Below are positions 478 through 13,403 of a stretch of 64,000 nucleotides of DNA, piece by piece. The DNA lies in contig MPMT01000011.1 in NCBI GenBank assembly GCA_002238645.1, positions 1-64,000 of the forward strand, written 5' to 3'. Source of the stretch: Alphaproteobacteria bacterium bin52. GTDB taxonomy: Bacteria; Pseudomonadota; Alphaproteobacteria; Thalassobaculales; Thalassobaculaceae. The notes under the pieces are model-generated. The model worked only from the letters and a program-made list of their open reading frames with translations, had not been told where the DNA came from and made no database searches. The position numbers and the translations under genes are program-made. Numbering within the stretch: the first letter of the stretch is position 1; each line of letters opens with the position of its first letter.

Positions 478-969
478 TGACTTTGTCGGATTCGCGTGCA
501 GCCTGCTGACGCTGACACCCCATGCATCCTGGCGCCGGCAGCACGCGGGTCACCATGGCGTCTGGAACGATCTCGATCGTCGGCAGAGCGGCGCCGATAT
601 CTATTCCTCCTGCCTGACCGTCGGCGAATACCGGGCTTTGAGCCCAAGGCAGCGTTGGTGGTACCGCACGACGCGGCATCCTATGGTCTCTAACCTTCTG
701 CTGCGGCCCTGCAGAGTTCGACCTACCTGCGCCTGCCGGCGGTCCTGCAATGGTTCACAGACAAAATCGGGTTCCATCACGTGCATCACCTGAACCCGCG
801 CGTGCCCAATTATCGGCTTCAGGAATGCCACGAGCGGATCGCAACACATTGTGATGTTCCGATATTGTCCTTCTTGGAGGGGCTGCAGGCCTTGCGTCTC
901 GTTCTGTGGGACGAGGACCGCGACAAGATGACGACGGTTCGCGAAGCGGCACGCGGGGCCAGGCCGTGA
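476..969 (+). pseudogene. Fatty acid desaturase remnant (DesA type), 5'-truncated and internally deleted
   Basis: Membrane fatty-acid desaturases insert a double bond using a di-iron site held by histidine boxes. Frame 2 from 476 reads a typical central segment with the box QHAGHHG and the downstream text DRRQSGADIYSSCLTV and SPRQRWWYR. The homology breaks at about 697-705 and resumes in frame 1 with ALQSSTYLRLPAVLQWF, then the third box HHVHH and NYRLQECHERI, ending at TGA 967-969. Roughly 100 residues of the usual middle region are missing at the junction. The gene begins exactly where the IS1595-like end stops (477), so the N-terminal third with the first histidine box is lost. It is not expected to be functional. 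The TGA overlaps the GTG start of the next gene. Confidence 0.75.
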
Positions 970-2041
970 AGCTGTTCGAGTGCCAGCACTGCGGCCAACT
1001 GCTCTACTTCGAAAACACGCGGTGCGAGCGCTGCAGACACGTTTTGGGCTATCTGCCCGATGGCACGATTCTGAGCGGCCTGACGGCCGAGGGTGGAGAC
1101 CGCTGGCGTCCGTTGGCCGCCCCGATGAACCTTTCCGCTTCTGCGCCAATGCGGTCTATGACGCCTGCAACTGGCTGGTGCCGGCCGACGGCCCGGAGGC
1201 ATTCTGCCGCGCCTGTCGGCTCAACCGGACGATACCCAACCTCGAAGCGCCCGAAGACCTCCTGCTCTGGCAGCGCCTGGAGGCCGCCAAGCACCACCTC
1301 GTCTACGGGCTGCTGCGCCTCGGACTGCCGCTGGTGAGCAAGTTCGAGGACGCCGAAAAGGGGCTCGCCTTCGACTTCTTAGCCGGCTCGGGCGCGATGT
1401 TCCAGGAAGGCCCGCAGGTCGTCACGGGTCATGCCCAAGGGCTGATCACCATCGATATCGCCGAGGCCGATGACGCCGAACGCGAACGCCATCGCCGCGA
1501 CATGGCGGAGCCCTACCGCACGCTCCTCGGGCATTTCCGCCACGAGATCGGCCACCACTATTGGGAGCGGCTGGTCCGGGAAGGTGTGTGGCACGGAGCC
1601 TTCCGCGAGATGTTCGGTGACGAGCGTCGCGATTACGGCGCCGCCCTGGAAGCGCATTACGCGAACGGCCCGCGGCCCGGCTGGCAGGAGCACTACGTCA
1701 GCGGCTACGCCGGCGCCCACCCTTGGGAGGATTTCGCCGAGACCTGGGCGCACTACCTGCACATCGTTGATACGCTGGAGACCGCGGACGCCTTTGGCAT
1801 GCGAATCCACCCCAAGGTCGGTCGCAAACCCGTGCTTGAGATGGCGATCGATTTCGATCCCTACCGCCAAGGCAACTTCGATGCGCTGGTCGAGGCGTGG
1901 CTGCCGCTCACCTATGCGGTCAACAGCCTCAACCACAGCATGGGCCAGCCGGACCTCTACCCGTTCGTCCTGGCGCCGACAGTCTTAGGGAAGCTCCGCT
2001 TCGTGCACGGTCTCATCCACAGGGGTAGCGGAGAGAAATAG
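966..2041 (+). pseudogene. Zinc-ribbon/zinc-binding metallopeptidase (DUF2248/Peptidase_Mx-like), frameshifted
   Basis: The GTG at 966 overlaps the desaturase stop (GTGA) and opens a frame whose first 20 residues carry a zinc ribbon (CQHCG...CERC). The family text continues to RWRPLA at about 1115, then jumps to another frame with RFCANAVYDACNWLV and CRACRLNRTIPNL. The catalytic HExxH is HEIGH at about 1541-1555, followed by the conserved ETWAHYLHIVDT and NSLNHSMGQPDLYPFVL, to a TAG at 2039-2041. Apart from one frameshift at about 1112-1125 the gene is full length (about 355 residues), so it is either recently inactivated or carries a base-calling error. The family is widespread in alphaproteobacteria, but its substrate is unknown to me. 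Confidence 0.75.
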
Positions 2042-2069
2042 GCCGCGGGCGATTCAGACCACCGACCGC

Positions 2070-2315
2070 TTACACGCCGTCGGGATCGACGAACAAGCAA
2101 TCCTGTGGGTCAGCTTCGAACGGTGCCAATCGAGAGTCGTAGCGGTATCGTGTCGCGCAGTAAGGACAGAGGATCGTCTCCTGGTCGCCGATGTTGATAT
2201 AGACGTGCGGATGATCCTGCGGCGGGGATACGCCGATGCAGTTGAACTCCCTCGCCCCAATGCGGATCTCCGGGACCGCGCGGTCGTTCCGGAATTTCGG
2301 ATAGCGGCTTGCCAT
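2070..2315 (-). CDS. Zinc-finger domain protein (zf-CHCC, NDUFS6-like)
   Basis: An 81-residue protein. Its C-terminal two thirds match the zf-CHCC fold: a Cys in FNCIGVSPP, the DHPHVY segment carrying the His ligand, and CPYC with following YRYD. In mitochondria the homologous fold is the complex I accessory subunit NDUFS6; in alphaproteobacteria it is a small stand-alone protein thought to assist complex I. Two adjacent ATGs (2313-2315 and 2316-2318) are possible starts. The reading frame stays open far upstream to 2993, but that extension looks like noise. It lies on the same strand as, and downstream of, the 191-residue unknown gene and groEL. Confidence 0.75.
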   Translation of the reverse strand: MASRYPKFRNDRAVPEIRIGAREFNCIGVSPPQDHPHVYINIGDQETILCPYCATRYRYDSRLAPFEADPQDCLFVDPDGV

Positions 2316-2548
2316 CATAGTCGCTCCAGAACGGCTCGACGATATCGCGCTCGACGAGGCCACGGACCACCCTCGGGCCACTTGAGCGGATGCCCCCCGA
2401 AATGCCGGCAATGCAGCACTGCCTGCATAAGTGTGGCGAGGTAGAGCACTGCCCTCCGCTTCCCAGGAGTCAATCCCGTTTATGTCGAACTGCGAGTTGG
2501 CCGCCGTCGGACAGTCGAATTGCTCGGGCATACGGGTCGACTTCGACG
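2316..2548 (-). other. Spacer with no recognisable gene
   Basis: About 230 bases lie between the zinc-finger gene and the unknown membrane protein. All three minus frames show short open stretches, one reading VERDIVEPFWSDYDGKPL, which look coding-like but have no start and match no family I know. It may hold the remains of another gene. No hairpin or promoter stands out. Confidence 0.4.
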
Positions 2549-3124
2549 TCACACGACGTTGGAACTCAATGGTTCCAAGGTCAACGCTGACGCCGAGGGC
2601 CGCGAACTGCCCTCGCGAAAGTCCGGCTGGACGATGTCGATCGACGCGATGCCAGCCAGATGTTGTTGGTTGGACCAAAGGTTGCTCACATCTGGCTCGG
2701 AAACCTTGTCGCCGTCCAGGCGCGACATGGCAAAGAGCACTGCAGCGCCAAGTGCGAGCCAAACCAGCCAGTTCGTAGACCCCGACTTCTGCTTCTGATC
2801 CCCGGTGCTCCTGTCCTGCGCGGACTTGGCCGACTGCGAGCCGTGCCTGGGCAAGCAATTCACCAAGCGAACGGCGATCGACTGTCGATCCGACACCTTC
2901 CAATCCCCTCCGGGGAGCGCACCAATTGTTGCCGCCAGAGCATGCGTCGCAGCTTCCTTGGGCAATTCGGACAGACGAGCGGCCTCGCCCCACGGGTCGA
3001 GGCCAAGCCGCGCCAGCGCGGAGAGGACGGTGAGCTGTTGTCCGCTCTTCTCTTCGCCAACGAATGCGAAAAGAAACTCGTTAAACTCGGAATGACCGAG
3101 CGAATATTCGGGACGCAGAGCCAT
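2549..3124 (-). CDS. Hypothetical protein with one membrane segment
   Basis: A 191-residue protein I cannot assign to a named family. The first 95 residues are soluble and well composed, with FLFAFVGEEKSGQQLTVLSA and LDPWGEAARLSELPKEAAT. A basic, Gln/Ser-rich linker follows, then a single hydrophobic segment (WLVWLALGAAVLFAM, about residues 119-135) and a 55-residue tail that may face the periplasm. The start is supported by AAGGAGG a few bases before the ATG at 3124. It is codirectional with groES-groEL, about 200 bases downstream of groEL, and may be cotranscribed. The N-terminal half looks like a conserved small regulatory or adaptor domain, but no function is claimed. Confidence 0.65.
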   Translation of the reverse strand: MALRPEYSLGHSEFNEFLFAFVGEEKSGQQLTVLSALARLGLDPWGEAARLSELPKEAATHALAATIGALPGGDWKVSDRQSIAVRLVNCLPRHGSQSAKSAQDRSTGDQKQKSGSTNWLVWLALGAAVLFAMSRLDGDKVSEPDVSNLWSNQQHLAGIASIDIVQPDFREGSSRPSASALTLEPLSSNVV

Positions 3125-3327
3125 CTCATTCCTCCTTCAGGATGCGCAGCTTATACAAGACCAAGGCAAAGCAGCCGACGCCCCAGTTGAATAGGCCTGC
3201 TGTCTCCGCCGGCTCAGTGGCCGTTTGAAGACCGGTGGCAAGGCGGGCGCATTTCCTTTCAACCCGCTGCTGGCAGCGACCGCGAGTCTAAGAGTCCGCG
3301 CCACTCATGCCACCGCCCTGCACGGCC

Positions 3328-4923
<1,596 letters not shown>

Positions 4924-4937
4924 TTAGACTCCAGTCC

Positions 4938-5261
4938 CTACGCGGCCTTCGCGGCTTTGCTTTTCGTGGCGGCACGTTCGACCACGCCCATGATGTCGGA
5001 CTCCTTCATGATCATGAGGGTTGCGTCATCAAGCTTGACTTCGCTTCCCGACCACTTCCCGAACAGCACACGGTCGCCGGCCCTGACCTCAAGAGCGTGC
5101 AACGCGCCATTCGCATCGCGGGCGCCGGGCCCGGCGGCGACAACCTCACCTTCCATCGGCTTTTCCTGCGCCGTGTCAGGAATGATGATGCCGCCAGAGG
5201 TCCTCGCCTCGGGTTCGACAGGGCGGATCAGGACCCGGTCCTGCAACGGGCGCAATTTCAT
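4938..5261 (-). CDS. groS: Co-chaperonin GroES (10 kDa subunit)
   Basis: A 107-residue lid protein for GroEL. It has the family text [16 protein letters not shown], the mobile loop [18 protein letters not shown], which contacts GroEL, and [15 protein letters not shown]. The ATG at 5259-5261 is chosen because GGAGGAGG lies seven bases upstream and the family begins there; the longer open frame to 5414 runs into the leader. The C-terminus is extended by a Lys/Ala tail ([10 protein letters not shown]), longer than the usual 95-97 residues. It is first in the groES-groEL operon. Confidence 0.96.
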
Positions 5262-5299
5262 TGACGGCCTCCTCCGACCAATATTTCTGAAGAATTCGG

Positions 5300-5342
5300 T
5301 TCTATCGGAAAGAAATCGGTAGAACGCGTCTATTAGATGGGG
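5300..5342 (-). promoter_or_regulatory. groES leader: imperfect inverted repeat and sigma32-like -10
   Basis: Read on the minus strand, CCCCATCT (5335-5342) resembles the -10 element of heat-shock sigma32 promoters. Just downstream is an imperfect inverted repeat, TTCTACCGA-7 nt-CCGATAGAA (5300-5324), in the presumed leader. No CIRCE element (TTAGCACTC-N9-GAGTGCTAA) is present. The -35 partner is not convincing, so the assignment is tentative. Confidence 0.3.
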
Positions 5343-5400
5343 CGGAGCGATTCTAAATACAATCGAGCGGATGCCAGGGAAGAAATAAAAGCAAAATTTT

Positions 5401-5555
5401 TTCCTGATTCCCACTCAAGCTAAGCGCAACTTGAGTAGCCGTTCCGGCATTGGCGGCGTCCTCAGGGCCACGTAGACCAGTCTGGGGATGATGTCGGGCA
5501 GGTCGAAGCGGCGATTGAACCGGTACTCGAACACCGCAAGATAGCGCTGTGCATA
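5401..5555 (-). mobile_element. Inverted copy of the IS1595-like 3' end
   Basis: This 155-nt segment is the reverse complement of 323-477 with about four mismatches. It encodes the last 46-47 residues of the same transposase (YAQRYLAVFEYRFNRRFDL onward) and the same terminal TTCCTGATTCCC. The homology ends sharply at 5555, where an IS3 fragment begins in the other direction, so this copy is a truncated remnant. Together the two copies form inward-facing right ends around 478-5400. Confidence 0.85.
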
Positions 5556-5558
5556 TCT

Positions 5559-5697
5559 CAGACCGACTTCACCTGGCTCAGGGTGATCGGCTGGGGCTGG
5601 TTCTATCTCTCGACGATCCTGGACGACTTCTCCCGCTACGTCATCACCTGGAAGCTGTGCACCACGATGAAGGCCAGTGATGTCACTGACACGCTGA
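5559..5697 (+). mobile_element. IS3-family transposase (OrfB) fragment
   Basis: The frame reads QTDFTWLRVIGWGWFYLST followed by ILDDFSRYVITWKLCTTMK and DVTDTL. This is the start of the DDE integrase core of an IS3-family OrfB, and includes the first catalytic Asp in QTDFT. Only about 46 residues remain of roughly 280. It is abutted on the left by the IS1595-like end and on the right by the tyrS-like 46-nt repeat. No terminal repeat is recognisable. Confidence 0.75.
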
Positions 5698-5743
5698 GTC
5701 CGCTTGAACGACGAGGTGAATTCAGTCATCGGGGTGCACTCCG
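5698..5743 (-). repeat. 46-nt copy of the tyrS 5' end
   Basis: This matches 8726-8771 at 43 of 46 positions in the same orientation. It covers the tyrS ATG, the first codons (MTEFTSSF) and about 14 bases of leader. After the match the frame drifts into the IS3 fragment, so no synthetase is encoded here. It marks a rearrangement that duplicated the front of tyrS. Confidence 0.8.
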
Positions 5744-6231
5744 ACACGGTCCCCCGCAACGCCGGTGCGAAGGTCATCCGCGCCGGCCTCGCACAGCCAG
5801 GTTCGGTGCGCTCCGCAGGAGCAAGCCTCCGGGCCCTTCCGCTGCAACCGCGTGTCGGTACTCCGCACCCACGAACGGGCCCTCCGGTCCTGGCCGCCCG
5901 GCGCCACCGGGCCATGGTCCCACTACCGGATTCGGTCAGGTTCAGGCTTTCGAGAACCACCCGGCCGGCACCCTGATCACGCGTGAGGCCGAAGTGATTC
6001 CGGCCGGGCGTGCGGGTACTGTCGCACAGGTGGTCGTGACCAGTGCTGCGCAAGGGACAACGGCACCATCGATGTCGACCAAACCGTGGCGAAGCTTCGA
6101 ACCAGTGCACGGGTTGTCGTGTTCCCGAACTCCGCGATCTGCCTTCCAGTCTGTCCATGCCCACCCTGTCCCTGCGATCCTGCCATCCGGGAGAGATCCC
6201 GCGAGGACGTATCAGGCCTGCCTCTCTATAT
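5744..6231. other. Intergenic region, no recognised gene
   Basis: About 490 bases between the tyrS fragment and the ATPase operator. Open frames exist on both strands but none has family-like text or a credible start. It is probably decayed mobile or accessory DNA. Confidence 0.4.
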
Positions 6232-6272
6232 ATCCTTGCATTTATGGCATTGTGCGCCATATATACAAGGAT
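6232..6272 (+). promoter_or_regulatory. Two-arm palindrome overlapping the ATPase start codon
   Basis: ATCCTTG (6232-6238) pairs with CAAGGAT (6266-6272) and TATGGC (6243-6248) pairs with GCCATA (6256-6261); both pairs are centred on the same base, 6252. The surrounding bases are AT-rich (CTATATATCC, ATATATACAAGG) in an otherwise GC-rich sequence. The right arm covers the ATG at 6271. It could be an operator, as in autoregulated modules, or an mRNA hairpin hiding the start. Confidence 0.6.
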
Positions 6273-7434
6273 GATACCGCGTCATAAATCACAGCTCCTC
6301 CGTGACCGGCTTGACCAGTTCCCCGCCGTGGCCCTCCTCGGCCCGCGCCAGACAGGCAAGACCACCCTGGCCAAGGTTATTGCCGAAGAGCGGGCCAGCA
6401 TCTATCTCGACCTTGAGAGCCAGGCGGACCGCGAGAAGCTGAGCGATGCCGCACCTTACCTGTCCGGGCACGCAGGGGAGCTGGTGATTATCGACGAGGT
6501 GCAGCGAGCGCCGGAGCTGTTCCAGACCCTTCGCGGCCTCATCGACCAGGGGCGCCGCCGCGGCATCCGGGCCGGCCGGTTCCTGCTTCTGGGTTCCGCG
6601 TCGATCGACTTGCTCAAGCAGTCGGGAGAGTCCCTTGCCGGCCGCATCGCGTATGTCGAACTCGGTCCGCTCACCGTTCATGAAGTGGGCGCTGCCCTGC
6701 GCGACGAGCTCTGGATCCGGGGCGGTTTCCCGGACAGTTTTCTTGCCGATAGCGACGACGCCAGCGCGGTCTGGCGGGAGAACTTCGTGCGCACCTACCT
6801 GGAGCGTGACATCCCGCAGCTTGGTCCGCGCGTGCCGGCGGAAACGCTGCGCCGCTTCTGGACAATGCTGGCCCACATGCAGGGCGGCCTGCTCAACGCG
6901 GCCCGGCTCGCGCGCAGCCTTGCCGTCGACGGCAAGACGGTCGCCCGGTATCTCGACCTGCTCGTCGATCTTCTGCTGGTGCGGCGCCTGCAACCGTTTC
7001 ACGTCAACGTCGGCAAGCGCCTGGTGAAATCACCGAAGCTCCATGTCCGCGACAGCGGTATCGTTCACGCGCTGCTCGGGCTCGATGACCGGGACGCGGT
7101 ACTGGGTCATCCGGTCGCAGGCGGGAGCTGGGAAGGGTTCGTGGTGGAGAACCTCCTCGGCGCGGCTCCGGAGCGTGTGAAGCCGTGGTTCTACCGAACC
7201 GCCGCCGGCGCCGAAATCGACCTGCTGCTCGAGATGCCGGGCGGAGACCTGTGGGCGGTGGAAATCAAGCGCGGACTGGCGCCGAGACTCGACAGGGGAT
7301 TTCACCACGCACGACAGGACCTCGATCCGAACCGCTCCTTCGTCGTGTATTCGGGCGACGAACGGTACCCCGCAGGCGAGGGTGTCGAAGCGATCGGCCT
7401 GGAGGAACTGACATCCCTCCTCGCCGCTGCATGA
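6271..7434 (+). CDS. ATP-binding protein, AAA_14 plus DUF4143
   Basis: A 387-residue protein of a large family of single-gene ATPases common in bacteria and archaea; its biological role is not settled. Walker A is GPRQTGKT at residues 24-31 and Walker B is LVIIDEVQ at about 70-77. The C-terminal half (RDSGIVHALLGL, EGFVVENLL, AEIDLLLEM, WAVEIKRG) is DUF4143, which has nuclease-like acidic and Lys positions. The start at 6271 fits family members that begin MIPR; an in-frame ATG at 6244 would add nine residues. No Shine-Dalgarno of normal spacing is visible for 6271, and its ATG lies in a palindrome. It is transcribed toward tyrS. It may be part of an addiction-like or accessory module, but no partner gene is next to it. 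Confidence 0.85.
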   Translation: MIPRHKSQLLRDRLDQFPAVALLGPRQTGKTTLAKVIAEERASIYLDLESQADREKLSDAAPYLSGHAGELVIIDEVQRAPELFQTLRGLIDQGRRRGIRAGRFLLLGSASIDLLKQSGESLAGRIAYVELGPLTVHEVGAALRDELWIRGGFPDSFLADSDDASAVWRENFVRTYLERDIPQLGPRVPAETLRRFWTMLAHMQGGLLNAARLARSLAVDGKTVARYLDLLVDLLLVRRLQPFHVNVGKRLVKSPKLHVRDSGIVHALLGLDDRDAVLGHPVAGGSWEGFVVENLLGAAPERVKPWFYRTAAGAEIDLLLEMPGGDLWAVEIKRGLAPRLDRGFHHARQDLDPNRSFVVYSGDERYPAGEGVEAIGLEELTSLLAAA

Positions 7435-7439
7435 CGGCC

Positions 7440-7465
7440 GAACCCGGACGACGCGCGACGGGTTC
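7440..7465. terminator. Hairpin between convergent genes
   Basis: GAACCCG (7440-7446) and CGGGTTC (7459-7465) form a perfect 7-bp stem with a 12-nt loop. It lies between the ATPase gene and the convergent tyrS. There is no T-run on either side, so it would be a weak or Rho-assisted terminator. Confidence 0.35.
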
Positions 7466-7497
7466 CTGCGCCGACGTGGTTGGGGCCCGATCCTGGC

Positions 7498-8757
7498 CTA
7501 TGCGATGCCGGCACGCAGCAGGGCGTGGCGCTTGCGTCCCGAGGACAGCTTGACGATCCCTTCGGCGTCAAGGTCCGCCAGACCGACCCGGTACTCCTCG
7601 CTGCTCACCACCACGTCATTGATCCGCGCACCCCCGTTCCTGATCAGCTTGCGCCCCTCACCGTTGCTCGCGACCAGGCCGCTGCGCCGCAGCGCTTCCA
7701 CGACCCACAGTCCGTCCTCCAGGTCCTGACGGTCGACCGGCAGGCTCGGCAGTTCTCCGCCCCTGCCGCCTTCCTCAAACGTCCTGCGAGCGGTCTCGGC
7801 CGCGGCCTGCGCCGCCCCGGAACCGTGACACAACCCGGTTACCTCGTCCGCCAGGACCTTTTTGGCGTGGTTGAGTTCCCGGCCCTCGAGTGCCGCAAGC
7901 CGCCGGATCTCCTCGAGCGGGAGATCGGTAAACAGCTGCAGGAACCGGCCCACGTCACCGTCCTCGGTGTTTCGCCAGAACTGCCAGAAGTCGTACGGGC
8001 TCAGTCGTTCGGCGTTGAGCCAGATCGCGCCCTGGGCCGTCTTGCCCATCTTCGCGCCCGACGCCGTGGTGATCAGGGGCGACGTCAGGCCGTGGATGGC
8101 CTGCCGGTCGATTCGGCGCGCCAGTTCGACGCCGTTTACGATGTTGCCCCACTGGTCCGATCCGCCCATCTGCAGTTCGCACCCGTAGCGGCGCCGCAGT
8201 TCCAGAAAGTCGTACGCCTGCAGGATCATGTAGTTGAACTCGAGGAACGACAGCGGCTGTTCGCGCTCCAGCCTGAGCTTGACACTGTCGAACGACAGCA
8301 TGCGGTTGACGGAAAAATACCGGCCGACCTTGCGCAGAAACGGGATGTAGCGCAGCGTCGAGAGCCATTCGTCGTTGTCGCACATGACGGCACCGGTCGG
8401 ACCGTCGCCGAAGGTGACGTAGCGCTCGAAGATGCGCCGGATTCCCGCCTTGTTGCGCCCGATGTCCTCGTCGCTCAGCAGCTGTCGGGCATCGTCGCGC
8501 CCGGACGGGTCCCCGACCTTGGTGGTTCCTCCGCCCATGAGCACGATCGGGCGATGACCGCAGCGCTGCAAGTGCCGCAACATCATGATCTGGAGCAGGC
8601 TGCCGACATGCAGGCTGTCAGCGGTGCAGTCGAACCCGATATAGGCCGTCACGACCTTGTTGTTCATCAGCGTGTCAAGGCCACCGGCATCGGTTGCCTG
8701 GTGAATGAACCCGCGTTCGCTCATTGTCCGCATGAACGACGAGGTGAATTCGGTCAT
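7498..8757 (-). CDS. tyrS: Tyrosyl-tRNA synthetase
   Basis: A 419-residue class I synthetase that charges tRNA-Tyr. The HIGH motif appears as HVGS (residues 51-54) after YIGFDCTADSL, and the KMSKS loop as KMGKT. The tyrosine pocket text FLEFNYMILQAYDF and GGSDQWGNI is intact, and an S4-like RNA-binding domain forms the C-terminus (RKLIRNGGARIND). The ATG at 8755-8757 is chosen over the longer open frame because the family begins near MTEF. It is last in a leftward run anmK-LLM-LLM-tyrS. Its first 46 bases are duplicated at 5698-5743. Confidence 0.97.
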   Translation of the reverse strand: MTEFTSSFMRTMSERGFIHQATDAGGLDTLMNNKVVTAYIGFDCTADSLHVGSLLQIMMLRHLQRCGHRPIVLMGGGTTKVGDPSGRDDARQLLSDEDIGRNKAGIRRIFERYVTFGDGPTGAVMCDNDEWLSTLRYIPFLRKVGRYFSVNRMLSFDSVKLRLEREQPLSFLEFNYMILQAYDFLELRRRYGCELQMGGSDQWGNIVNGVELARRIDRQAIHGLTSPLITTASGAKMGKTAQGAIWLNAERLSPYDFWQFWRNTEDGDVGRFLQLFTDLPLEEIRRLAALEGRELNHAKKVLADEVTGLCHGSGAAQAAAETARRTFEEGGRGGELPSLPVDRQDLEDGLWVVEALRRSGLVASNGEGRKLIRNGGARINDVVVSSEEYRVGLADLDAEGIVKLSSGRKRHALLRAGIA

Positions 8758-8771
8758 CGGGATGCACTCCG
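8726..8771 (-). repeat. tyrS 5' end, parent copy of the 46-nt repeat
   Basis: This holds the tyrS start codon, early codons and leader, and is repeated at 5698-5743 with three mismatches. Homology does not extend further on either side. Confidence 0.8.
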
Positions 8772-8834
8772 GATCGCCCGGGTCTGGGAAGCCGCGGGTG
8801 TAGCATGCTCCTCCGGGCCTCTCAACAAGGCCGG

Positions 8835-9740
8835 TCACGCCGGCGCGTAGACCCCGAACACCTCCGCGAATGCCTTCATCTGGTTGCCGACGGCCGACGA
8901 GGGCACCAGGATCGGGGTCCTGACACCCGCCTCGACGAGTTCTTCCACGCCTTCCCTGATTCGCCCGGGCCGGCCAGCCAGGGTGGTGTCGTCGAGCCAG
9001 CGGTCGGACAGCCTGGCAGCGACCGCCGCGTCGTCCCGGTCAAGGACCCGCTCGACCTCGTCCATTTCCTCGGCGTACCCGGCCTCGCGCCAGTACGCCC
9101 GGTAGTACGGCAACCGGGCATAGCGTGACAGGGTCCGGCGATTGACGGCGCGGGCCGCCTCGAGGTCCTCACTCACGCAGGTCGGCGTCATGCAGGCAAC
9201 CTCGAACTTCGGGTCCGCGCGCACCGCGAAAGGCAGGGCTTCGAGCGAGGCCGCGATCCGACTCCGGCAGGCGTTGGCAAAGACGACCCCGTCCGCGATC
9301 TCGCCCGCCAGGGTGATCATCCGCGGACGCATCGCGGCAAGCACAACCGGGGGCAGGCTGCCAGTGCGCGGAACAGCGCGCAGCCGGTCGACGAAGCCGC
9401 GCATGTCCTCGAGCGGCCGTCCCGCGCTGAGCCCGAGGCGCCTGTGGGTGGACTGGTGCGAAACGCCGATGCCGAACCGGAACCGTCCGCCCGACACCTC
9501 GTGCAGGAAGCCTGCGGCCTGGGCGAACTCGTCCACCGGCTGGAAGTAGATCGGCGCGATCGAGGTGGCGAAGGTCAGGCGTTCGGTGACATGGGCGAGC
9601 GCATGGCACAGACTCAGTCCGGCAAACGGACTCGGAACCCACAGACCGGCAAAGCCGCGGCGTTCAATCTCGCCCGCCAGTTCGAGCGTCTGGCGCCGAC
9701 GGCCCGGAACCGCGGTCAGGCTGAGGGCCGGCATGGTCAT
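8835..9740 (-). CDS. LLM-class (luciferase-like) flavin-dependent oxidoreductase
   Basis: A 301-residue TIM-barrel protein of the bacterial luciferase/F420-dependent reductase superfamily. Typical text includes FAGLWVPSPFAGLS, ERLTFATSIAPIY, VSGGRFRFGIGVSH and VVLAAMRPRMITLAGEIADGVVF. Members use FMN or F420; which one, and the substrate, cannot be read here. The ATG at 9738-9740 is preferred over an earlier one at 9782, which would overlap the upstream gene. It lies 28 bases after another LLM gene and 77 bases before tyrS. Confidence 0.85.
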   Translation of the reverse strand: MTMPALSLTAVPGRRRQTLELAGEIERRGFAGLWVPSPFAGLSLCHALAHVTERLTFATSIAPIYFQPVDEFAQAAGFLHEVSGGRFRFGIGVSHQSTHRRLGLSAGRPLEDMRGFVDRLRAVPRTGSLPPVVLAAMRPRMITLAGEIADGVVFANACRSRIAASLEALPFAVRADPKFEVACMTPTCVSEDLEAARAVNRRTLSRYARLPYYRAYWREAGYAEEMDEVERVLDRDDAAVAARLSDRWLDDTTLAGRPGRIREGVEELVEAGVRTPILVPSSAVGNQMKAFAEVFGVYAPA

Positions 9741-9768
9741 GGCGTCTCTCCGGTCGTGGGTCGGCAGG

Positions 9769-10812
9769 TCAGCCCGCATCACGCAGCAGGTCGAGCAGCT
9801 GACCGAGCTGGTCGAGTTTGCCGGGAACGTCCCCGGGCACCGGGTCGAGCCGCAGGGTCGTCACACCGGCCCGGCGGTAGACAGCGAGCCTCTCGCGGAT
9901 CGCGGCCGGCGGCCCGATCAGGTTGCTCCTGAGCACGAGGTCGTCCGGAACCGCCTCGATCGCTTCCTTGCGGCGACGATCGATCCACAGGCTGCGGACC
10001 CGCTGGCATTCCTCCTCCCATCCCGCACGACGGTACGCGTCGTTGTAGAAGTTGCTGGTAGCCGATCCCATGGCGCCGAGCCGGAAGGCAAGCTCGGGCC
10101 TGAGCACCGCCACCGCACCCTCGACATCGTCGGTGATCCACAGCCGGCCGCCCGCCTGCAGGTCCAGTGCGTCGAGCGACCGGCCGGCCCGGGCCGCGCC
10201 ACGCCCGATCGAGTCCCAGAAGACGTCGGCACGCTCGGGAACGAAACAGGTGCCGAGCCAGCCCTGCGCCCGCTCGCCCGTGAGCTCGAGGCTGCGTTCG
10301 CCCAGGGTCGCAAGGTAGATCGGCAGGTCCGGCCGCGGGGGCATGGCCAGCGCGATCGCCTTGCCTTCCCCATCCGGCAAGGGAAACCGCATCTGCCGGC
10401 CCGAGAAGGATATTCTCTCGCCGCCGAGCGCCATACCCAGCACGTCGAGCGTTTCCCGCAACCGCTCGAGCGGCCGGGAAAACCGGACACCGTGCAGCCC
10501 CTCCACCACCTGCGGACCGCTCACGCCCAGTCCGAGGACGAACCTGCCCCCGGTCAGGCGGTCAAGACTGAGCGCGGTCATGGCCATCATCGCCGGCACC
10601 CGCGCCGTAACCTGCATGATGCCGGTCCCCAGGATGATGCGGGAGGTGAGCGGCGCCAGCGCGGCCAGGGGTGTCGCCGCGTCCTGTCCCCAGCCTTCGG
10701 CCGACCATACGTGATCGACACCCAGCCGCTCCGCTTCAAGCACGTAAGAGACGGTCCCTTCCCAGTCCTCCGCGGTTGACGATGCACTGCCGATCGAAAT
10801 GCTGGTCTTCAC
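9769..10812 (-). CDS. LLM-class flavin-dependent oxidoreductase
   Basis: A 347-residue luciferase-like protein. Diagnostic stretches are AERLGVDHVWSAEGWGQDA, SRIILGTGIMQVTARVPAM, LTGGRFVLGLGVSGPQVVEG and LPIYLATLGERSLELTGERAQGW, typical of the F420-dependent methylene-H4MPT-reductase-like group. It overlaps the end of anmK by four bases, so it is probably translationally coupled. It differs strongly from its downstream neighbour, so the pair is not a recent duplication. Substrate unknown. Confidence 0.88.
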   Translation of the reverse strand: MKTSISIGSASSTAEDWEGTVSYVLEAERLGVDHVWSAEGWGQDAATPLAALAPLTSRIILGTGIMQVTARVPAMMAMTALSLDRLTGGRFVLGLGVSGPQVVEGLHGVRFSRPLERLRETLDVLGMALGGERISFSGRQMRFPLPDGEGKAIALAMPPRPDLPIYLATLGERSLELTGERAQGWLGTCFVPERADVFWDSIGRGAARAGRSLDALDLQAGGRLWITDDVEGAVAVLRPELAFRLGAMGSATSNFYNDAYRRAGWEEECQRVRSLWIDRRRKEAIEAVPDDLVLRSNLIGPPAAIRERLAVYRRAGVTTLRLDPVPGDVPGKLDQLGQLLDLLRDAG

Positions 10813-11930
10813 GACGCGGTCCCTCCCGCCTGTCGGATTCCGGCGGCGGCCCTCGCGAGGATGCCGCCGGTCATGGGTTCCGGAACTCCGGTGACACCGG
10901 GATAGCTGATCGGCAGGCCGCGGAGCGAGCGAACCGCCAGGTAGGCGAAGGCCTGTGCCTCGAGGCCGTCACCATCCAGTCCCGCCGCCTCGCCGGGCAC
11001 GACCCGGACCCCGAGGCGCCGGCGCAGTTCCTTCATCAGCGTCGGGTTGCGCCTGCCGCCGCCCACCACCACCCAGGTGTCGGGCAATGACGGAAGGTGG
11101 TCGCGGGCGCGCGCAGCCGCCTCGGCCGTGATCGCGGTCAGGGTGGCAGCACCGTCTTCAGGCGAAGTCCCGTCCATCAGCGCGCGCGTCGTCACGGCGA
11201 AGGTGTTGCGGTCAAGCGACTTCGGCGGCGGGAGCGCCAGGTACGGTTCACGCATGAACCGCGCCACCAGCGCCTCGTCGACGCGCCCGCGTGCCGCCAT
11301 CCGGCCGTCCTCATCGAAGTCGGCGCCGGTCCGGGCCCGCACCCAGTCATCGATCAGCCCGTTGCCGGGACCGGTATCGAAGCCCAGCAGTTCCCCTTCG
11401 CCCGGCCCGATCCAGGTCACGTTGGCCACGCCCCCGACATTCAGCACCGCGACCGGCAGCGCCGTTCCGGCAAGCAGGGCCCGGTGGTAGACCGGGACCA
11501 GGGGTGCGCCCTGCCCGCCGGCGGCGACGTCGGCGCTGCGCAGGTCGTGAACCACATCGATCTCCGTGAGTTCCGCCAGCAGCGCCGCGTCGCCGAGTTG
11601 GTCGGTCATGCCCCTCTCGGGTGCGTGGCTGATCGTGTGACCGTGAAACCCGATCACGTCGACATCGCCCTGTGCCAGTCCGCCCGCCGCCAGCACCTGC
11701 CGGACCGCGTCGGCGTGCCGTCGGGTCAGGTCCAGTCTCACCCGGTCCCTGTCGCCGGCCCCTTCGATCAGGTCGCGAAGACGGGAGCGGAACTCCGGCG
11801 GATAGGGAACCGACACCGCCGCGCCGGGCCGCACCACGTCACGCCCGTCGGTCACGAGCAGGGCCGCGTCGACCCCATCCATCGAGGTGCCGCTCATCAG
11901 TCCGATTGCGGTGGTGACCAGCGCTGTCAT
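10809..11930 (-). CDS. anmK: Anhydro-N-acetylmuramic acid kinase
   Basis: A 373-residue kinase of the ASKHA fold that opens and phosphorylates 1,6-anhydro-MurNAc, giving MurNAc-6-phosphate in peptidoglycan recycling. The N-terminal phosphate loop GLMSGTSMDGVDAALL is at residues 10-25. The family text FHGHTISHAPE, NVGGVANVTWIG, GFDTGPGNGLIDDWV and VVVGGGRRNPTLM follows. Length is normal. It is often found beside tyrS in alphaproteobacteria; here two LLM genes lie between them. Confidence 0.96.
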   Translation of the reverse strand: MTALVTTAIGLMSGTSMDGVDAALLVTDGRDVVRPGAAVSVPYPPEFRSRLRDLIEGAGDRDRVRLDLTRRHADAVRQVLAAGGLAQGDVDVIGFHGHTISHAPERGMTDQLGDAALLAELTEIDVVHDLRSADVAAGGQGAPLVPVYHRALLAGTALPVAVLNVGGVANVTWIGPGEGELLGFDTGPGNGLIDDWVRARTGADFDEDGRMAARGRVDEALVARFMREPYLALPPPKSLDRNTFAVTTRALMDGTSPEDGAATLTAITAEAAARARDHLPSLPDTWVVVGGGRRNPTLMKELRRRLGVRVVPGEAAGLDGDGLEAQAFAYLAVRSLRGLPISYPGVTGVPEPMTGGILARAAAGIRQAGGTAS

Positions 11931-12011
11931 CGAGTCCGCCGAAGGGTGAATGAAGCGGGTGCGAGCCTATGGCATCGGACCCCGCATGCACAGCATCGAA
12001 GGGAGGTCACA

Positions 12012-13403
12012 ATGCGCTTGTCTCAGGCGGGTTCCGGCGCGCAGCATGAAGGACGGAGCGCACCGGCCCGCCGACGGCGTGCGCCCTCTTTCCGACCGGT
12101 GGTTGTCATGCACACCCTCGTGTTTCTCGAGCCCGGCCACTTTCACGCCGCGCTGACCCTGCGAACGCAGAACCCGCGCATCGACCCGACCGTGCATCTC
12201 TACGCCGGCGCGGGTAAGGAGCGCGATGCCTTCCTCGACCTGGTTGCCTCGTTCAACCGGCGCGCAGAACACCCCACCGCCTGGACCGTGAAGGTGCACG
12301 AATCGGCCGACCCGGAACGGGCTTTGGTCGAGGAGCGGCCAGGCGGGGTCGTCATTCTCGCCGGGCGCACCCGGCCCAAGCTCGGCACCATCGCGCGACT
12401 GCACGCAGCAGGGCTGCACGTGCTGGCCGACAAGCCCTGGATCACGGAAAGCGGCGCACTCGGTCACCTCGGGCAGGTGACGGCCGGCTGGCCGCTCGCG
12501 ATCGACATCATGACCTTTCGCCACGAGGTGGTGGCACGGCTTGCACACGAAATCGCAACCGACCCGGACCTGTTCGGCACCCTCGACGGCAGTGCCGGCC
12601 GGCCCGCGATCGACATTCAGTCGGTCCACCACCTGCTGAAGCTGGTCAACGGCGCGCCGCTGCGCCGACCTGCCTGGTACTACGATACCCGCATCCAGGG
12701 TGACGGCCTCGTCGACATCCAGTCGCACATGGCCGACCAGGCCCAGTGGATCATCGGTGACGGCGACGGCCTCGCGTTCGACCGCGACTACGCGATCGAG
12801 AGTGCACGGCGCTGGAGCACACCGGTACCGTTGGAACTCTTCCGCGCCAGTACCGGGCTCGATGCGTTCCCGCAGGAACTCCTGCCACGGATCGGGAACG
12901 GGGTGCTAGAATTTGCCTGCAATGGCGAGATCCGCTACCGGCTGCGGGGCGTGACGGTGTGCCAGCGTGCCGAGTGGGGCCAGCGCGAGCCGGACGGAGG
13001 CGGCGACGCCCACCGCACGACAATCAGGGGCAGCGAAGCGACAGTCGTTGCAAGGCGCGGACCCGAGACCGGATTCCGGGGCGAACTCCACCTCTCCCCG
13101 CGCACTCCGGGAGCGGGTTTCACGCGCCGGCTTACCGAATGGCTTGCCTCCCGGAAGGCCGGGATGCCCGGGCTGTCGCAGCGCCCGTCCGAATTCGGTT
13201 GCGAGATCGTCATTCCGCACCGGTTCCACACGCCGCACGAAGCCCACTTCGCGATGGTGCTCGACGAGTTCCTCGACCAGCTCGAGGCGGGTGCATGGCC
13301 GCGGGTTCACGCCGCGCGCATACGCGCGCGCTACACCCTGCTTGCACGGGCGCGCGAACACTGCACCGACGACGGGACCAGCCAGTCACGGCAACCGGCA
13401 TGA
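12012..13403 (+). CDS. Gfo/Idh/MocA-like putative oxidoreductase
   Basis: A 463-residue protein. The region from residue 33 (HTLVFLEPGHFHAALTL) resembles the putative oxidoreductase group with a Rossmann-like N-domain (VVILAGRTRPKLGTI, GLHVLADKPW) and a C-terminal substrate domain (SVHHLLKLVNGAPLRRPAWYYD, GLVDIQSHMADQAQW). The DKPW segment is the nucleotide-site Lys region of Gfo/Idh enzymes. GGGAGGT five bases before the ATG at 12012 supports this start; a second in-frame ATG at 12108 marks where family conservation begins and is the alternative. It is transcribed away from anmK. Substrate unknown, perhaps a sugar or polyol. Confidence 0.75.
   Translation: MRLSQAGSGAQHEGRSAPARRRRAPSFRPVVVMHTLVFLEPGHFHAALTLRTQNPRIDPTVHLYAGAGKERDAFLDLVASFNRRAEHPTAWTVKVHESADPERALVEERPGGVVILAGRTRPKLGTIARLHAAGLHVLADKPWITESGALGHLGQVTAGWPLAIDIMTFRHEVVARLAHEIATDPDLFGTLDGSAGRPAIDIQSVHHLLKLVNGAPLRRPAWYYDTRIQGDGLVDIQSHMADQAQWIIGDGDGLAFDRDYAIESARRWSTPVPLELFRASTGLDAFPQELLPRIGNGVLEFACNGEIRYRLRGVTVCQRAEWGQREPDGGGDAHRTTIRGSEATVVARRGPETGFRGELHLSPRTPGAGFTRRLTEWLASRKAGMPGLSQRPSEFGCEIVIPHRFHTPHEAHFAMVLDEFLDQLEAGAWPRVHAARIRARYTLLARAREHCTDDGTSQSRQPA

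Follow-up and report, generated by a model that had tools for sequence, protein, structure and literature searches.

Fragments of IS1595 and IS3 elements and a 46-nt copy of the tyrS start abut beside groES

We found that positions 5401 to 5743 of the window, by which we mean the whole 64,000-nucleotide stretch analyzed here, very probably form an ordinary rearrangement scar, nonfunctional and with no sign of a role for the sequence. Read from groES toward tyrS, the end of an IS1595-family element, a piece of an IS3-family transposase gene, and a copy of the tyrS start abut one another within ~340 bases beside groES (Table 1). The preliminary description of this DNA, which had these three pieces fused end to end, is borne out by DNA and protein matches, and all three are decayed relics. 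The window, with a GC content of 66.8%, is contig 91 of a draft genome (4.2 Mb, 120 contigs), and the relatives compared with it were one same-genus genome (the sister species G001), 36 family genomes, and a class-wide sample.

Table 1. Features at and around the junctions in the window
Feature	Position	Strand	Remarks
IS1595-family (ISXO2-like) outer end and last 46 transposase codons	5401..5555	-	Truncated at 5555; outer base shared with complete copies; the full copy matches PF12762
Edge of the IS3 piece, ATCTCAGACC	5555..5564	+	Non-IS3 ATCT, then IS3 CAGACC; edge common to the contig 69 IS3 fragment
Internal IS3-family OrfB fragment (integrase core around the first catalytic Asp)	5556..5697	+	PF00665; both element ends missing
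46-nt tyrS-start copy (spans 14 nt of upstream DNA with GGAG, the start codon, and first codons)	5698..5743	-	43/46 to 8726-8771
Stretch without a recognized gene	5744..6164	.	5964-6017 resembles a 54-bp genus-only repeat
Border with the conserved backbone	6165	.	Sister-species colinearity starts here
AAA_14/DUF4143 ATPase gene, intact backbone neighbor	6274..7434	+	PF13173, PF13635; beside tyrS in the sister species too
tyrS, intact, source of the 46-nt copy	7498..8760	-	PF00579, E=2.3e-74

The 155-bp IS1595 end is 97% identical to an inverted copy at 323-477, and besides that copy it occurs at six other places in the genome (90-98% identity), one of which is cut by a contig end. Since the homology of the complete copies starts at one constant outer base (TTCCTGATT in most) and their flanks are unrelated, the element genuinely ends at 5400/5401. 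The homology of the window fragment ends at 5555, and the other copies run on past that point. Searched alone against Pfam, the 46 residues encoded at 5418-5555 on the reverse strand gave no family match; they are the C terminus of the transposase of a full-length copy on contig 87 (44/46 identical), which matches PF12762 (DDE_Tnp_IS1595, E=1.2e-36). The element is thus broken off within its transposase gene. It resembles the ISXO2 group of the IS1595 family in the PF12762 transposase of the full copy and in having several copies scattered over the genome that share one outer end, but the window copy is cut to 155 bp and its opposite end is missing. As a separate observation, the two inverted copies (323-477 and 5401-5555) enclose 478-5400, which holds the groESL pair, and the groES/groEL-start DNA within this block is only ~70% identical to the nearest sister-species copies. 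This block may have been acquired as a unit resembling a composite transposon.

The adjoining piece had been described as a fragment of an IS3 OrfB, and this family assignment holds. Positions 5556-5699 on the forward strand translate to 48 residues of an integrase core (PF00665, E=6e-11 in Pfam), and the DNA matches in relatives and plasmids (80-86% identity, 83-86% in plasmids) fall on features annotated as IS3-family transposases. What required correction is that the piece is internal, includes neither IS3 end, and starts after ATCT. The window fragment has neither the two overlapping frames of the family nor its TG..CA terminal repeats and is a relic rather than an element. Other copies in this genome are a longer fragment on contig 69 (94%) and a copy on contig 36 (93%); the latter is an internally deleted IS3 derivative in which 109 bp of OrfB are fused straight onto the element's 3' end (L010, L091). 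An intact related IS3 element of ~1.5 kb with TGT..ACA ends is present in another genome of the class. The window piece shares the OrfB integrase core and ~84% DNA identity with ISMex16, the nearest named IS3 element in plasmids, but at only 142 bp it has no OrfA and no ends.

The third piece matches tyrS far above chance, as first described (E=4e-12 in a self-search of the window). Because the runner-up 46-mer in the window reaches only 27/46, against 43/46 for the tyrS start, a chance match is excluded. The match stops at 5698 and 5743, with no extension past the 46 bp on either side. The GTCCGC earlier placed at the border is simply the six bases with which the match to tyrS opens. The copy differs from tyrS at 5704, 5724, and 5734; since our tyrS and that of the sister species are identical over the 46 copied bases, all three changes lie on the copy, which has probably been free of constraint and did not arise very recently. 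tyrS itself is single copy in nearly all relatives. We found no third place with tyrS-start sequence in our genome, no copy apart from tyrS itself in the 36 family genomes, and none in phages and viral contigs, and we rejected on these grounds the idea that the copy is part of a mobile element present elsewhere. A search for the exact junction in the genome_contigs database, from which our own genome was possibly left out, returned no match.

The sister-species tyrS is 97% identical in protein, and the two genomes are colinear over window positions 6165-12798 at 91.5% DNA identity. Searching the sister species with 4800-6200 recovered only distant groESL paralogues (~70%), the tyrS gene itself, and weakly matching copies of the 54-bp repeat, with no tyrS copy at the site, and 5744-6164 matched nothing except this short repeat in a DNA search of the 36 family genomes. 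Since the sister species has no homology immediately left of 6165 and the family search with 5744-6164 gave only the short repeat, the site sits in a genome-specific block that meets the conserved backbone at 6164/6165. The repeat is dispersed, has imperfect inverted ends (CCGGCACCCTG..CAGGGCGTGCCGG), and was genus-only among the genomes searched, with two places in our genome and three in the sister species; its copies include 5964-6017 in the window, contig 19:39342-39395, G001 contig 16:36264-36316, and G001 contig 56:660-719, and the others are 78-81% identical to the window piece.

This comparison speaks against the earlier proposal of a deletion or transposition between tyrS and the site, as tyrS is intact, the sister species is colinear across 6165-12798, and no IS end lies beside the copy. 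Nor was tyrS found beside the 5.7-kb site in a relative, a check that was run on one same-genus genome (G001). tyrS and its neighbors have neither moved nor been deleted, and the copy is an extra duplicate. We also rejected integration of an element into the 5' end of tyrS, since tyrS itself lies in the segment between the two copies and the sister species has the tyrS-ATPase order without the repeat. It is improbable, too, that an IS or another mobile element brought the tyrS piece by transduction or one-ended transposition: IS fragments do adjoin the copy, but the ends of neither IS1595 nor IS3 touch it, the IS3 piece is internal, and other copies of both elements carry no tyrS DNA.

Since the copy is in direct orientation and lies 3,028 bp from its source, against a chance of ~0.15% that a random genomic fragment comes from within 3 kb, a local mechanism is favored. 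We consider a duplication followed by a deletion the best-fitting route to the tyrS copy, about as likely as not. An IS1595-family element would have inserted upstream of groES and been truncated against an already broken IS3 fragment, and the segment 5744-8771 would have been tandemly duplicated locally. A later deletion, running from the IS3 fragment to 8726, would then have stripped the left copy to its last 46 bp, abutting 5744. A collapsed tandem duplication of 5744-8771 predicts precisely such an orphan 8726-8771 piece abutting 5744, and local duplication is supported by the sister species, where tyrS and the ATPase gene are undisturbed and no copy is present. Against this route, no intermediate carrying a second tyrS gene is known, the DNA left of the proposed duplication has been lost, the 8771/5744 joint shows no microhomology, and only one close relative was available for comparison. 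The pieces and their borders, the intact tyrS, and the absence of the copy from the sister species are observed directly; the route and the order of events are inferred.

The element end diverges by 2% from its closest copy, the IS3 piece by 6% from its best copy, and the tyrS copy by 6.5% from tyrS. Although the error is wide on such short pieces, these values suggest that the IS1595 truncation would be the youngest event. Their inequality, together with the abrupt internal borders, upholds the part of the preliminary description that called for successive events, while the transposition or deletion between tyrS and the site that it attached to them is not supported as stated.

A templated (filler) insertion, in which repair or replication at the end of the IS3 fragment switches to the nearby tyrS, copies 46 nt, and switches back, would account for a short piece with two abrupt borders and a template nearby. 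We found no Ku gene in the genome and therefore rejected Ku-dependent end joining, which leaves a template switch or alternative end joining. This insertion requires two switches, however, and neither border of the copy shows microhomology, so we regard it as rather unlikely. The scar recalls the small variable segments of bacterial genomes, which are proposed to stem in large part from short-homology and illegitimate recombination (Touzain et al. 2010, PMC2884548). It shares with them short genome-specific pieces in a conserved backbone and no site-specific mechanism, but differs in including a copy of a chromosomal gene start.

That the junctions are an assembly chimera, with reads wrongly joined at repeats, is very improbable. 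The genome is a draft of 120 contigs, contig 91 starts beside another IS1595 copy, and 5401-5555 has a 110-base exact run in common with the IS1595 copy on contig 19. On the other hand, the longest exact runs are 19 bases between the copy and tyrS and 32 bases between the IS3 piece and any of its copies, which is too short for usual assembly overlaps, and the tyrS copy and the IS3 piece each have private differences. It is thus unlikely that assembly created the inner junctions; only the groES/IS1595 joint might be affected, and it is less certain.

Least credible of all is that the fusion is a working chimeric gene, in which the ribosome-binding site and start of tyrS drive an open frame at 5418-5731 on the reverse strand that ends with the transposase C terminus. 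This frame of ~105 codons is open across all borders, and GGAG lies ~10 nt before its ATG. Antisense open frames are, however, frequent in GC-rich DNA; the 105-residue product has no Pfam family, its middle is antisense IS3, a consensus scan upstream shows no promoter-like site, and the relative lacks the copy.

The left edge of the IS3 piece offers a lead of a different kind. Native IS3 copies in relatives have TGTGG or similar before CAGACC, where the window has ATCT, and all of the plasmid matches listed begin at CAGACC. On contig 69 (L006:1479-1510), the same edge recurs within the right arm of a perfect hairpin, GGTCTG-AGATGTTATGTAGAACATCT-CAGACC, located at a truncated IS3 OrfB. The 20-bp core of this hairpin has one occurrence each in our genome and the sister species, and it was not found in 39 other relatives and 384 other class-wide genomes; one match in viral contigs, on an AT-rich contig where the flanking palindrome is absent, was taken as chance. 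In the sister species, the hairpin reads GGCGTG-AGATGTTATGTAGAACATCT-CACGCC (contig 64, L182:2645-6100) and borders a three-recombinase (RIT) element within an IS481-like transposase gene, with the left flank TGGCACGCC before TTATGTGG and a trio of tandem tyrosine recombinase genes at L182:2784-5969. At both loci, the six outermost hairpin bases repeat the target in inverted form, and both sit at codons around the first catalytic Asp. The arms differ in step with the target across the two loci, and the window may keep four bases (ATCT at 5555-5558), a match expected by chance at ~1/256, where contig 69 has the full hairpin. No recombinase trio was found in the window stretch or beside the contig 69 fragment.

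On this comparison we would propose, with considerable doubt, that the window IS3 fragment descends from a copy hit by an RIT-type tyrosine-recombinase element, which in this genus would insert at the first catalytic Asp region of DDE transposases (TGG-CACGCC-GA and TGG-CAGACC-GA) and have at its border a hairpin with the inverted target as its outer six bases. Two loci and a four-base remnant make this a lead, not a result. RIT elements have been reported to insert within transposase genes, to vary at their ends, and to carry a palindrome close to those ends (PMC3414803). The loci described here resemble those elements in the contig 64 trio of the sister species, which lies inside an IS481-like gene, and in the hairpin core that recurs at the contig 69 IS3 fragment; they differ in that the window stretch and contig 69 are without a trio and the window keeps at most the hairpin edge ATCT. 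We did not retain the target-copy idea in a generalized form, as the closest plasmid trios show other hairpin-like sequences that are not clearly at the trio borders. On plasmid NZ_CP035515.1 (48224-56855, L188), two identical toprim-domain genes in inverted orientation enclose a recombinase trio together with urease genes, which suggests a larger mobile unit.

If it proves true in more copies, the hairpin observation might help explain the reported variation of RIT ends. The scar at 5401-5743 itself requires no new biology. It documents how fragments of insertion sequences and short stretches of genes pile up where a genome-specific block ends.
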